A stretch of DNA of 34,187 nucleotides from Jiangellaceae bacterium (lineage in GTDB: Bacteria > Actinomycetota > Actinomycetes > Jiangellales > Jiangellaceae), in the NCBI GenBank assembly GCA_014534205.1, contig JACVRX010000004.1, positions 1-34,187 of the forward strand, given 5' to 3'. The position numbers were made by a program, and so were the translations under genes. Under the pieces are notes generated by a model that was not told the origin of the DNA, ran no database searches, and worked only from the letters and a program-made list of their open reading frames with translations. How positions within the stretch are numbered: the first letter of the stretch is position 1; each line of letters starts with the position of its first letter. Shown here one piece after another: positions 7,785 through 24,848 of the stretch.

Positions 7785-7816
7785 CGATAGACACCAGCTC
7801 CGGCAGCCTGCGCTTC

Positions 7817-7858
7817 GTGCGATTCAGCACTCTGGTACTTGGACGGCGCGTCGGCTGA
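7817..7858 (+). CDS. Putative ilvB leader peptide (V/M)[12 protein letters not shown]
   Basis: GTG CGA TTC AGC ACT CTG GTA CTT GGA CGG CGC GTC GGC TGA; Leu-Val-Leu run just upstream of an intrinsic-terminator-like hairpin and ilvB. Ribosome binding site weak. Confidence 0.65.
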
Positions 7859-7876
7859 CCCACCCGGCCGGCGCGC

Positions 7877-7913
7877 GACCCCTTCTGTGCCCTCGGGCCG
7901 AAGGGGTCTTTTC
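7877..7913 (+). terminator. Attenuator terminator hairpin upstream of ilvB
   Basis: Perfect 9-bp inverted repeat GACCCCTTC (7877-7885) / GAAGGGGTC (7900-7908) followed by TTTTC. Confidence 0.8.
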
Positions 7914-17932: not shown

Positions 17933-19039
17933 ATGGTCGACGCGCCGCGGCGGCTGGAGTTCTCGACGACGCTGTCGCAGAGCCCGGTTACGACGCGGCG
18001 CCGGGCTGAGATGCTGGCCGATCCCGGCTTCGGCCGATGGTTCACCGACCACATGGTCACGGCCACCTGGACACCGGATGACGGCTGGCACGACGCCGGC
18101 GTCCGACCATACGGGCAACTGAGCCTCGACCCGGCCACGGCAGTCCTCCACTACGCCCAAGCCATCTTCGAAGGTCTGAAGGCGTACCGGCACAGCGACG
18201 GCTCGATCTGGACGTTCCGGCCAGCAGCGAACGGAGCCCGTTTCGCACGCAGCGCGCGGCGGCTGGCTCTCCCAGAACTACCCGTAGACGACTTCATCGT
18301 GGCCATCGATCTACTGGTGCGTACCGACGCCGCATGGGTTCCCCCGGCGACCCGCGTACGGGAAACCAGCCTCTACCTGCGGCCGTTCATGTTCGCCTCC
18401 GAGGTCTTCCTCGGCGTCCGGCCGGCCAAGGAGGTCATGTTCTGCCTGATCGCATCGCCGGTCGGCCCATACTTCACCTCGGGTGTGGAGCCGGTGCACA
18501 TCTGGCTGTCGGAGAAGTACGTCCGCGCCGCGCCCGGCGGCACCGGCGCGGCGAAGTTCGCGGGCAACTATGCAGCGAGCCTGATCGCGCAGCAGGAGGC
18601 GTCCGCGCACGGATGCGACCAGGTGTGCTTCCTCGATGCAGTCGAACGCCGGTGGGTCGAGGAGCTGGGCGGCATGAACCTGTACTTCGTCCACTCCGAC
18701 GGCTCGATCGTCACCCCCGAGCTCACCGGAACGATCCTGGAGGGCGTCACCCGAGCGTCGATCCTGCAACTGGCGTCCGACCTCGGGCACAAGGTCGAGG
18801 AACGCCGGGTCGGCATCGACGAGTGGCGCGAGGGGGTCGGCTCCGGGGAAATCGCCGAGGTATTCGCGTGTGGCACCGCAGCGGTCGTTACGCCGCTTGG
18901 CCGGCTGCTGTGGGACGGCGGCGAGTTGCACATAGCAGACGAGCCGGGCCCGGTGACCATGAGCCTGCGCACGGCGTTGCTGGACGTGCAGTACGGCCGA
19001 GCTGAGGACATCCACGGGTGGCTGCACCGCGTCGCCTGA
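17933..19039 (+). CDS. ilvE: Branched-chain-amino-acid aminotransferase
   Basis: FTDHMVTATWTPDDGWHDAGVRPYGQLSLDPATAVLHYAQAIFEGLKAYRHSDGSIWTFRPAANGARF...GTGAAKFAGNYAASLIAQQEA...VEELGGMNLYFV. Confidence 0.95.
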   Translation: MVDAPRRLEFSTTLSQSPVTTRRRAEMLADPGFGRWFTDHMVTATWTPDDGWHDAGVRPYGQLSLDPATAVLHYAQAIFEGLKAYRHSDGSIWTFRPAANGARFARSARRLALPELPVDDFIVAIDLLVRTDAAWVPPATRVRETSLYLRPFMFASEVFLGVRPAKEVMFCLIASPVGPYFTSGVEPVHIWLSEKYVRAAPGGTGAAKFAGNYAASLIAQQEASAHGCDQVCFLDAVERRWVEELGGMNLYFVHSDGSIVTPELTGTILEGVTRASILQLASDLGHKVEERRVGIDEWREGVGSGEIAEVFACGTAAVVTPLGRLLWDGGELHIADEPGPVTMSLRTALLDVQYGRAEDIHGWLHRVA

Positions 19040-19127
19040 CCCGTGCCCACCCCGCTATAAGGACCGGGTGTCCACCATGTGGTCATTGGATCTCGGTCCG
19101 CGTGATCATGTGGCAAGCTCGGCGGCG

Positions 19128-19154
19128 ATGTCCTTCCGGATGATCATTACCTAG
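19128..19154 (+). CDS. Putative cimA leader peptide MSFRMIIT (or in-frame GTG-started MASSAAMSFRMIIT)
   Basis: ATG TCC TTC CGG ATG ATC ATT ACC TAG; stop adjoins hairpin GCGCGCC (19155-19161)/GGCGCGC (19180-19186), followed by a terminator-like hairpin and the citramalate synthase gene. Confidence 0.5.
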   Translation: MSFRMIIT

Positions 19155-19187
19155 GCGCGCCGGCCCAAGCACAACGCCAGGCGCGCA

Positions 19188-19214
19188 GACCCTTCGCAGC
19201 CGCGAGGGGTCTTT
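19188..19214 (+). terminator. Attenuator-like terminator hairpin upstream of cimA
   Basis: 10-bp stem GACCCTTCGC (19188-19197) / GCGAGGGGTC (19202-19211), one G-U, AGCC loop, followed by TTT; stem sequence resembles the ilvB attenuator. Confidence 0.75.
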
Positions 19215-19247
19215 CGCATTCTTGAGACGCCAGCTCGAGGAGATCCC

Positions 19248-20837
19248 ATGAGCGTCGACGGGTTTCACGTCTACGACACCACGCTTCGCGACGGCGCCCA
19301 GCAGGAGGGCTTGTCCCTGTCGGTCAACGACAAGCTCACGATTTCCCGCCATCTGGACGAGCTGGGCGTCGGGTTCATCGAGGGCGGCTGGCCGGGCGCA
19401 AACCCCAAGGAGACCGAGTTCTTCCGTCGCGCCCGATCGGAACTCGACCTGCGGCACGCCAATCTCGCGGCATTCGGTGCCACCAGGCGGCCGAACGTGC
19501 GCGTCGACGACGACTCCCTCGTGCGTGCGCTCGTCGACGCGGAGACCCCGGTCGTCACGGTCGTCGCCAAGAGCCATACCGGCCACGTGGAGCGGGCACT
19601 GCACACCACGCTCGAGGAGAACCTCTCGATGGTGCGTGACACGGTCCGCTTCCTGGCCGGCCTCGGCCGGCGGGTCTTCCTCGACGCCGAGCATTTCTTC
19701 GATGGCTACCGCCGGGACCCTGCCTACGCCCTGGCGGTCGTCACCGCGGCTGCGGAGGCCGGCGCGGAGCTGGTCGCCCTCTGCGACACCAACGGCGGCC
19801 TGTTGCCGGACGACGTCGGCGAGATCGTCGTCGCAGTCAACGACGCCGCAGGAGTGCGGCTTGGTATCCACTGCCACAACGACACCGGGTGTGCGGTAGC
19901 CAACTCGATCGCGGCCGTCGACGCCGGCGCGACGCACGTCCAGGGAACGTTGAACGGCTACGGCGAGCGCACAGGTAACGCGGACCTGGTCACCGTGGTG
20001 GCGAACCTGGAGCTCAAACGCGGCCGGCAGGTACTGCCGCCCGGAGCGCTGCGCGAGGCGACCCGGATCGCACACGCTGTGGCGGAGGTCACCAATGTGG
20101 TCCCGTACTCGCGGCAGCCGTACGTAGGTACGAGCGCGTTTACACACAAGGCCGGGCTGCACGCCAGCGCGATCAAGGTGGACCCGGACCTCTACCAGCA
20201 CGCCAACCCCGGCGACGTCGGCAACGACATGCGGATGCTGGTGTCCGACCTGGCCGGGCGGGCGAGCATCGAACTCAAGGGCCGCGAGCTGGGCTACGAC
20301 CTGTCCACCGACCGGGAACTGGTCGGCCGGTTGACCGAGCGGGTGAAGGAGCTGGAGGCGCGCGGCTACACATTCGAGGTCGCCGACGCATCGTTCGAGC
20401 TGCTGCTGCGGACGGAGGCCGACGGTGGGCACCCGCAGTTCTTCCACGTCGAGTCCTGGCGTGTCATAACGGAGTCGCGCCCGGGTGGCGAGGCACCCAG
20501 CGAAGCGACCGTGAAGCTGCGCGCCGGCGGTGAGCGGGTCGTCGTCACCGGCGAGGGGAACGGCCCGGTCAACGCGCTGGACCACGCGCTGCGGCAGGCG
20601 ATCGGCACTCTCTACCCAGAGATCGACAAGCTGGAGCTGGTCGACTACAAGGTGCGCATCGTCGACGCCAGCCACGGCACCGGCGCGGTCACCCGGGTGC
20701 TCGTCGAGCTGACCGACGGCAAGCGGTCGTGGGAGACCGTGGGGGTTGGCGCCAACATCATCGAGGCGTCCTGGGAGGCGCTCGTCGACGGCGTCACGTA
20801 TGGCCTGCTGCACCAGGTGGCCGAACCGCCGCGCTGA
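19248..20837 (+). CDS. cimA: (R)-citramalate synthase (LeuA/CimA family)
   Basis: MSVDGFHVYDTTLRDGAQQEGLSLSVNDKLTISRHLDELGVGFIEGGWPGANPKETEFF...HCHNDTGCAVANSIAAVDAGATHVQGTLNGYGERTGNADL...AFTHKAGLHASAI; C-terminal regulatory domain. Confidence 0.93.
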   Translation: MSVDGFHVYDTTLRDGAQQEGLSLSVNDKLTISRHLDELGVGFIEGGWPGANPKETEFFRRARSELDLRHANLAAFGATRRPNVRVDDDSLVRALVDAETPVVTVVAKSHTGHVERALHTTLEENLSMVRDTVRFLAGLGRRVFLDAEHFFDGYRRDPAYALAVVTAAAEAGAELVALCDTNGGLLPDDVGEIVVAVNDAAGVRLGIHCHNDTGCAVANSIAAVDAGATHVQGTLNGYGERTGNADLVTVVANLELKRGRQVLPPGALREATRIAHAVAEVTNVVPYSRQPYVGTSAFTHKAGLHASAIKVDPDLYQHANPGDVGNDMRMLVSDLAGRASIELKGRELGYDLSTDRELVGRLTERVKELEARGYTFEVADASFELLLRTEADGGHPQFFHVESWRVITESRPGGEAPSEATVKLRAGGERVVVTGEGNGPVNALDHALRQAIGTLYPEIDKLELVDYKVRIVDASHGTGAVTRVLVELTDGKRSWETVGVGANIIEASWEALVDGVTYGLLHQVAEPPR

Positions 20838-20886
20838 GGTTGATTTCACGAAGAACTTCACGACCTGAGCGGTCTGCGGTTTTGGA

Positions 20887-21840
20887 ATGATGACCGGGGT
20901 GCGCGAGTTCGTCGTCGCGAAAAACCCGGAGCCAGAATCGCGGCTGCCGTACCTGATCGCCGTGCCGTACAGGACGGGGCTGGTGTTCCGCGCGGGCGAC
21001 ACCTGGCCGCGCACCAAGGCCGTGTACTGCCACCCGCTGGCCGAGTGGCCGGTCGGCGCGCACGTCGTGGAACGGGTGCCGGTGCGGTCGGTGGTCCGCC
21101 GCGGCGCCGCCATCGACCTGGTGCTGGACCGCGCTCGGGAGAATCGCTCCCAACTGGTGTTCACGACGGCACGCGGCCGCGAGGTGGTGTTCTGGCAGAG
21201 CGCGCGCACGCGCAAGCAAGCGCGCCCGGGCATCCGAACACCCTCCGCCCGAGCGGCCGGTCTGGCCGAGCTGCTGATCATCGTCGACTCGCACGAGCGC
21301 TACGGCTATCGGTTCGCCGACCAGCAGGTCACGACCACCCGACGGGCGCTGCCCGCCGGGGATTACGCGATTGAGCGGGACGGCCGGCTGGTGGCGGTGG
21401 TGGAGCGCAAGTCGCTGGCCGACCTGGTGTCGAGCCTGACCACCGGCAGGCTCCGGTTCACGATGGGCGAGCTCGCCGCGCTGCCCCGAGCGGCGATCGT
21501 GGTCGAGGACCGCTATTCCCAGGTGTTCAAGCTGGAGCAGGTGCGGCCCGCGGTCGTGGCCGACGGGCTGGCCGAACTGCAAGTGCGCTACCTGTCGGTA
21601 CCCATCGTCTTTTGCGAAACTCGGCCGCTGGCCGAGGAGTGGACCTACCGGTTCCTCGCGGCCGCGTACTCGGCCGACGTCGAGCGCACCGACACGGCCG
21701 CGCGGCTGGCCACGGTGGAGGCGCCGCCGACCACGGGCGAGATCCGAGCATGGGCGATCTCCCGCGGACTCGCCGTTGCCCACCGCGGGCGGCTCTCCGC
21801 AGAGGTCGTGAGTGCCTACCACGCGGCGCATGCCACCTAG
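20887..21840 (+). CDS. ERCC4 (XPF-type) nuclease domain protein with C-terminal Lsr2-like DNA-binding segment
   Basis: LLIIVDSHERYGYRFADQQVTTTRRALPAGDYAIERDGRLVAVVERKSLADLVSSLTTGRL (GDY..ERKxxxD); C-terminus TTGEIRAWAISRGLAVAHRGRLSAEVVSAYHAAHAT resembles the Lsr2 C-terminal IRxWAxxxGxxVxxRGRIxxxVxxAYxAAH. Confidence 0.85.
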   Translation: MMTGVREFVVAKNPEPESRLPYLIAVPYRTGLVFRAGDTWPRTKAVYCHPLAEWPVGAHVVERVPVRSVVRRGAAIDLVLDRARENRSQLVFTTARGREVVFWQSARTRKQARPGIRTPSARAAGLAELLIIVDSHERYGYRFADQQVTTTRRALPAGDYAIERDGRLVAVVERKSLADLVSSLTTGRLRFTMGELAALPRAAIVVEDRYSQVFKLEQVRPAVVADGLAELQVRYLSVPIVFCETRPLAEEWTYRFLAAAYSADVERTDTAARLATVEAPPTTGEIRAWAISRGLAVAHRGRLSAEVVSAYHAAHAT

Positions 21841-24516: not shown

Positions 24517-24588
24517 TGGGGTATGGTGTAATTGGCAGCACGACTGACTCTGGATCAGTTAGTCTAGGTTCGAGTCCTGGTACCCCAG
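24517..24588 (+). tRNA. tRNA-Gln (anticodon CTG)
   Basis: TGGGGTA acceptor pairs with TACCCCA; anticodon arm ACTGA-CTCTGGA-TCAGT; T loop GGTTCGAGTCC. Confidence 0.95.
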
Positions 24589-24600
24589 CGCAACTCCCAC

Positions 24601-24673
24601 GGCCCCGTTGTGTAGCGGCCTAGCACGCCGCCCTCTCAAGGCGGTAGCGCGGGTTCAAATCCCGTCGGGGCTA
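24601..24673 (+). tRNA. tRNA-Glu (anticodon CTC)
   Basis: GGCCCCG acceptor pairs with CGGGGCT (one G-U); anticodon arm CCGCC-CTCTCAA-GGCGG; T loop GGGTTCAAATCCC. Confidence 0.95.
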
Positions 24674-24848
24674 CAGCGGGAACCCCCTCGCCCGGTGGGT
24701 ACACCTCAACTCAAGTTGATCATCTCCGCTCGGGGAACCATCGGTATTCATTGGTCACCGCAGATGTCCGTGCCGCGTCCATTGCACGGGCCACCAAGTC
24801 CAGCGATCGCCGAACATGTGGCCGTACTGGTCAAGCCGCCGGGCTCAC

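Follow-up and report, generated by a model that had tools for sequence, protein, structure and literature searches.

What controls the expression of citramalate synthase, which opens a route to isoleucine, is a question raised by a 34,187-nucleotide stretch of DNA from a Jiangellaceae bacterium (assembly GCA_014534205.1, contig JACVRX010000004.1; the whole stretch is called the window below), in which the citramalate synthase gene cimA is preceded by a very short open reading frame and two tandem hairpins. An earlier note on this DNA proposed that the arrangement is an isoleucine-responsive attenuator. The sequence comparisons presented here largely support that proposal, and we consider it highly probable that the cimA leader is an isoleucine attenuator. 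It is also likely, though we hold this a shade less firmly, that the leader controls cimA by ribosome-mediated transcription attenuation, charged tRNA-Ile being what is sensed.

Layout of the cimA leader

The leader spans positions 19109-19214, ends about 34 nt upstream of cimA, and contains a short upstream open reading frame (uORF), a GC hairpin (hairpin 1) and an abutting terminator. The features are the following.

19109..19119, + strand, putative promoter -10 element TGTGGCAAGCT (consensus TGTGgCAnACT), with a predicted transcription start at or beside the uORF start codon
19128..19154, + strand, leader uORF encoding MSFRMIIT followed by a stop, probably leaderless, with the presumed regulatory Ile codons ATC ATT at 19143-19148
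19155..19186, + strand, hairpin 1 (GCGCGCC...GGCGCGC), starting directly after the uORF stop, a candidate ribosome-gated antiterminator
19187..19214, + strand, intrinsic terminator hairpin AGACCCTTCGC-AGCC-GCGAGGGGTCT with a short U-tract, abutting hairpin 1
19237..19242, + strand, Shine-Dalgarno-like GAGGAG of cimA, as read from the sequence
19248..20837, + strand, cimA, citramalate synthase (TIGR00977, E 1.8e-191, 637 bits, cut-off 450)

The uORF has eight codons: ATG (19128-19130), then TCC TTC CGG ATG ATC ATT ACC, closed by TAG (19152-19154). The stem of hairpin 1 has 7 bp (GCGCGCC at 19155-19161 with GGCGCGC at 19180-19186), to which the minimum free energy (MFE) fold adds three inner pairs, and the terminator stem pairs GACCCTTCGC (19188-19197) with GCGAGGGGTC (19202-19211), including one U.G wobble, above a closing pair A19187-U19212. 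The earlier note had described the uORF with its Ile-Ile-Thr end and a stop adjoining hairpin 1, which is correct to the base; the 7-bp GC hairpin and the 10-bp terminator hairpin with TTT lie where it had placed them, and its assignment of the following gene to citramalate synthase is confirmed by a TIGR00977 score above the cut-off. The MFE of the 89-nt leader is -42.9 kcal/mol, against -28.4 +/- 3.2 for shuffled sequences (z -4.6), and none of 200 shuffles was as good. A simple terminator consensus scan did not call the window terminator and a sigma-70 consensus scan found nothing at the leader; we regard both scans as uninformative here.

Conservation of the leader in the family and across the class

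Several lines of evidence show that the leader is a conserved element. Firstly, a DNA search covering 60 relatives matched it in 20 of the 21 other genomes of the same family, so that both the Ile-containing uORF and the hairpins are conserved in close relatives. The aligned family leaders have in common a TGTGnCAnnCT motif, a start codon a few bases further on, an in-frame Ile-Ile, hairpin 1 and the terminator. The encoded peptides of relatives include MTFCLIIT, MSFCLIIT, MTYSLIIS, MTFCLIIP, MSFWMIII and similar ones, as well as a long form, MFYGLLIIGRRAG, and in Streptomyces other than S. coelicolor and S. lividans there are leaders of the form VLSFAMIIGSRRAGPQ. Each of the 20 family sequences has the -10-like element, as do most leaders of the class. 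In the window it ends 8 nt before the uORF ATG, so that transcription probably begins at the start codon or right beside it. The presence of such a conserved element 8-14 nt ahead of the ATG speaks against transcription starting only after 19160.

Secondly, the leader is found far beyond the family. CimA was located in 235 of 297 genomes, and the upstream DNA of 80 of these genes was taken by gene position alone, blind to leaders; an independent pattern script found an Ile-rich uORF followed by a terminator in most families represented among these 80 regions. An initial covariance model (R1), whose RNAalifold structure held only 13 pairs, was superseded by a model with an explicit structure (R2), and a third model (R3) was trained without any sequence of the family of the window. 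With R3, 61 of these 80 actinomycete regions give a match at E<1e-9, about 32 of the 61 being training sequences. It did not recognise a leader upstream of cimA in two families (f18 and f25) or in a small number of individual genomes; the regions without a recognised leader include L057-L066 (f18) and L080-L083 (f25). In a second test set, consisting of 80 further cimA loci from named genomes (431 kb), R3 gave strong matches (E<1e-8) at 47 loci, all on the coding strand and within about 460 nt upstream of the gene, and no strong match elsewhere in the 431 kb. These strong matches include Streptomyces, Nonomuraea, Acrocarpospora, Actinomadura, Streptomonospora, Kribbella, Nocardioides, Cellulomonas, Cellulosimicrobium, Micromonospora, Pseudonocardia, Kutzneria, Amycolatopsis and others. 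Among four weaker matches (E 1e-4 to 0.04) are loci with the labels Acidimicrobiaceae and Ilumatobacteraceae, and two of the four have runs of Ile codons. The covariance search over actinobacterial cimA upstream regions that the earlier note had suggested thus has a clearly positive outcome: about 20 family-level groups have kept the Ile codons, hairpin 1, the terminator and their spacing upstream of cimA.

Hairpins are abundant in high-GC DNA, and weak half-matches of the model also occur in the window, so a chance assembly of a short open reading frame and GC hairpins might be considered. However, R3 scores the window leader at 71 bits (E 2.6e-17), and as this model had seen no member of the family, the leader is not a chance pattern. 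Moreover, within the 34-kb window only the cimA leader and a leader upstream of ilvB score strongly. We consider a chance origin refuted, with a negligible probability left to it.

Regulatory codons and spacing

An in-frame Ile-Ile is present in 44 of the 47 strong named leaders. ATT accounts for 60 of the 101 leader Ile codons (59%) but for only 18 of 727 (2.5%) in the cimA genes of the same organisms, an odds ratio of 58, whose p-value is not to be taken literally because the sequences are related. ATT and ATC interchange synonymously in the leaders while the frame is kept. Most leaders place the base of hairpin 1 at 8-9 nt from the first base of their last Ile codon, the cimA leaders of Streptomyces at 11 nt, and nearly all have a gap of 0-1 nt between hairpin 1 and the terminator.

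These data bear on the view that the hairpins merely terminate transcription of an upstream leuB-ilvE unit, the uORF being incidental. It is true that ilvE lies on the same strand and ends at 19039, about 150 nt upstream of the terminator. However, throughout the class the terminator follows a conserved -10-like element, a uORF, Ile codons and a constant codon-to-hairpin distance, and a plain terminator would need neither Ile codons nor a bias towards the rare ATT. The conservation of the uORF largely refutes this explanation, and we regard it as highly improbable.

Covariation of the two hairpins

The conservation extends to base pairing. In an alignment of 35 sequences both helices covary, with a score of 0.33 compared with 0.18 for shuffled alignments and at most 0.13 when the partners were slid. 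Hairpin 1 shows compensatory changes in all six inner pairs (6 of its 10 pairs) in this alignment, its basal GCGC/GCGC being invariant. In a set of 51 sequences the score is 0.38, versus 0.16 shuffled and at most 0.10 slid, with compensatory changes in 16 of 20 pairs, but this set was aligned to the model and is hence biased towards the model structure. All 10 modelled pairs of the terminator covary in the named set. The loops of both hairpins vary freely in length and sequence.

Two further observations concern the stems. The basal GCGC/GCGC of hairpin 1 (19155-19158 with 19183-19186 in the window) is nearly invariant in sequence, which pairing alone does not explain. In the terminator of the window and its relatives a U.G wobble is usual in the lower half of the stem (U19193.G19206 in the window), and in relatives UG is the commonest pair at one stem position.

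Two well-conserved hairpins could also point to an RNA that binds a protein or a ligand, riboswitch-like or similar to the LEU element, which is of unclear mechanism and precedes leuA in Actinobacteria (PMC1262725). However, the loops are free to vary, and the conserved unpaired part is the coding part, in which the Ile frame is kept despite the switches between ATT and ATC. Nor is there an Rfam match: at gathering thresholds the window yields two tRNAs only, 20 loci with such leaders yield none, and no T-box match to the cimA leader was found. We therefore consider a binding RNA very unlikely as an alternative to a leader that is read by the ribosome.

Proposed mechanism of the probable isoleucine attenuator

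A ribosome-mediated attenuator is expected to have a short uORF with codons for the end product, which the sequence provides in the form of the Ile codons, and an intrinsic terminator between the uORF and the structural gene, which is also in place. In addition, the spacing puts hairpin 1 correctly for gating by a ribosome. On this basis, we propose the following scheme. RNA polymerase would start at or beside the ATG, and a ribosome would load on the leaderless uORF and trail it closely. When isoleucine is ample, the ribosome would reach the stop codon at 19152 and cover the 5' arm of hairpin 1; the abutting terminator would form and transcription would end. When isoleucine is scarce, the ribosome would wait at the Ile-Ile pair, which often includes the slowly read ATT, with its front edge at about the base of hairpin 1, which would be free or covered at its base only, depending on the exact footprint. 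Formation of hairpin 1 during the stall would then lower termination, and cimA would be transcribed.

The individual steps of this scheme differ in strength. Stalling of the ribosome on the Ile codons is predicted, as is the site of the transcription start. That hairpin 1 acts as an antiterminator has, in our opinion, about an even chance of being right. Its presumed antagonism towards the terminator is drawn by analogy with the ilvB attenuators of C. glutamicum and M. tuberculosis, for which the same logic has been proposed: mutations in the terminator base raised expression of C. glutamicum ilvBNC 7-8 fold (PMC11857589), and changing LVVI to AAAA abolished induction of M. tuberculosis ilvB1 (PMC13236596).

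Several observations weigh against the scheme. Firstly, complementarity that would support an antiterminator was sought in three ways. Pairing of the 5' arm of the terminator with the upstream region showed no excess duplex energy (mean z +0.11 over 49 leaders); pairing of its 3' arm with the interior of hairpin 1, as in the model for C. ulcerans ilvB-II, showed no conserved complementarity (mean z +0.10), GGACCCC loops being present in some families but not generally; and the test for an extension of hairpin 1 outwards into the terminator was negative as well. It is because of these three null results that an effect of hairpin 1 on the terminator has to be argued from the ilvB precedents. Secondly, the uORF of the window has only two Ile codons. 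Thirdly, its U-tract is just TTT (19212-19214), whereas most relatives have a longer one of 4-6 T. Finally, codon changes in the ilvB leader of S. coelicolor are described as without effect on regulation (Craster 1999, as cited in PMC1262725).

A classical, mutually exclusive antiterminator is thus not detectable in these leaders by any of the three tests.

Another possibility is that the leader is a ribosome-mediated Ile attenuator in which hairpin 1 is not an antiterminator, but a pause or synchronising hairpin, or one that helps termination by stacking on the terminator, and in which a stalled ribosome would lower termination by blocking the base of hairpin 1. On the one hand, nearly all members have 0-1 nt between the hairpins, a ribosome with the last Ile codon in its A site would cover about 12 nt downstream, including the invariant GCGC 5' strand, and no antiterminator overlap emerged from the three tests. 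On the other hand, the published models of the related ilvB leaders assign the antiterminator role to the equivalent hairpin or to an alternative fold, and because the ribosome edge can be placed only to within about 3 nt, the spacing does not settle the matter. We see this variant as possible, while giving it the smaller share of our confidence.

Comparison with known attenuators

The ribosome-mediated reading invites comparison with described leader-peptide systems. The actinobacterial ilvB attenuators (S. lividans ilvL MRTRILVLGKRVG, the C. glutamicum ilvBNC or ilvB-II motif and M. tuberculosis ilvB1) resemble the cimA leader in having a leaderless or near-leaderless uORF, branched-chain codons close to the first hairpin and an intrinsic terminator. 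They differ in that the cimA leader has Ile-Ile(-Ile) as its only such codons and precedes cimA, and in C. glutamicum the antiterminator and the terminator have three bases in common (PMC11857589), an overlap that is not seen in cimA leaders. The Streptomyces leuS attenuators (Seliverstov 2005; S. lividans LeuL2 MRAVRLLLSEPR) are alike in their tandem hairpins and a codon-to-hairpin spacing of about 8 nt, and the cimA model found leuS leaders in several genomes; they differ in their Leu codons and in a hairpin base of GCCGCG, compared with GCGC in cimA leaders. The trp, his and ilv attenuators of E. coli likewise combine end-product codons in a leader peptide with hairpins and a terminator, but the cimA peptide is much shorter, has no ribosome-binding site (its uORF is probably leaderless), and is followed by hairpins without detectable 2:3 antiterminator complementarity. 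As to the LEU element before leuA, a paralogue of cimA, it too has a leader peptide before a gene of the isopropylmalate/citramalate synthase family. It has been described as a pseudoknot whose base stem includes the Shine-Dalgarno box, with no obvious terminator (PMC1262725); the cimA leader instead has two nested hairpins with a terminator, which covary as such.

The survey of Seliverstov 2005 (PMC1262725) reported actinobacterial leaders for trp, cys, ilvB, leuA and leuS, with no conserved element in any other pathway, and the re-annotation of S. lividans (PMC8079986) lists eight leader peptides, none of them at cimA. The earlier note knew of no described cimA attenuator of this form, and we found none in the literature either, subscription journals being mostly outside the scope of our search, so that an earlier description is possible. 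The cimA leader appears to be a new addition to the leader-peptide attenuators of Actinobacteria. If this is true, it would explain how citramalate synthase is controlled across much of the Actinomycetes, many antibiotic producers among them. The leader codons would also offer a check of function by sequence, Ile codons marking a synthase that serves isoleucine and Leu codons one that serves leucine, and the missing antiterminator poses a clear mechanistic question.

Related leaders at ilvB, leuS and other genes

The earlier note had remarked that the terminator stem resembles the one at ilvB, suggesting related or co-opted control modules. This likeness is borne out by a second leader in the window.

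7786..7912, + strand, related ilvB leader, with a uORF running from GTG to TGA and containing Leu-Val-Leu codons, hairpin 1 and a terminator

Two models trained on cimA leaders only match it at 43-51 bits (E 5e-10 to 2e-11), and the match covers the full length of the model (positions 1-118). In 21 other genomes, weaker second or third matches precede ilvB (for example with the peptide VRFGILVLH) and leuS (for example VRGLLLLIGPR), these genes having been recognised by reading their translations; the ilvB and leuS leaders of other genomes score 29-46 bits with the cimA-trained model. The codons suit the gene downstream: Ile at cimA, Leu at leuS, and Leu, Val or Ile at ilvB. In all three kinds of leader, hairpin 1 has its base about 8 nt from the first base of either the last regulatory codon or the one before it, and the cimA leader shares with the tandem-hairpin leaders of ilvB and leuS the 0-1 nt gap between the hairpins. 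Furthermore, the long-form cimA peptides, which end in ..LLIIGRRAG, resemble the ilvB peptide of the window, which ends in ..VLGRRVG.

One layout with gene-suited codons supports the idea of co-opted modules, and the shared layout may reflect either descent or convergence. A more far-reaching suggestion, which we put forward tentatively and think doubtful as it stands, is that the leaders of cimA, ilvB and leuS, and in one group a likely leuA leader, all go back to a single ancient actinobacterial attenuator chassis that was copied with nothing but its regulatory codons exchanged. Such a chassis would need no conventional antiterminator that excludes the terminator; instead, the hairpin abutting the terminator would be gated by the front edge of the ribosome. 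The common layout makes a codon-swap test of the attenuator logic direct.

Similar leaders occur at other genes. Family f11, in which no cimA was located, has a leader of this chassis with Leu codons (peptide MTNLLLT; L117, G054:C27:88774-88890) in front of an apparent out-of-frame leuA-like gene. Genus g5 has a second Ile leader, again with these tandem hairpins, and the gene that follows it is a small ACT-like open reading frame and not cimA (L131, G007:C37:283436-283553, and L132, G004:C6:196636-196756, minus strand; peptides MFALVIIM and MFTPRIII). The small frame behind L131 and L132 has a weak ACT-domain match (PF13291, E 0.001-0.004, below cut-off), and it may encode an Ile-controlled ACT regulator.

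Other features of the window

A 732-amino-acid open frame runs antisense to cimA on the minus strand (19083-21281) and is probably an artefact of the high GC content. Finally, tandem genes for tRNA-Gln (CTG) and tRNA-Glu (CTC) are located at 24517-24674.
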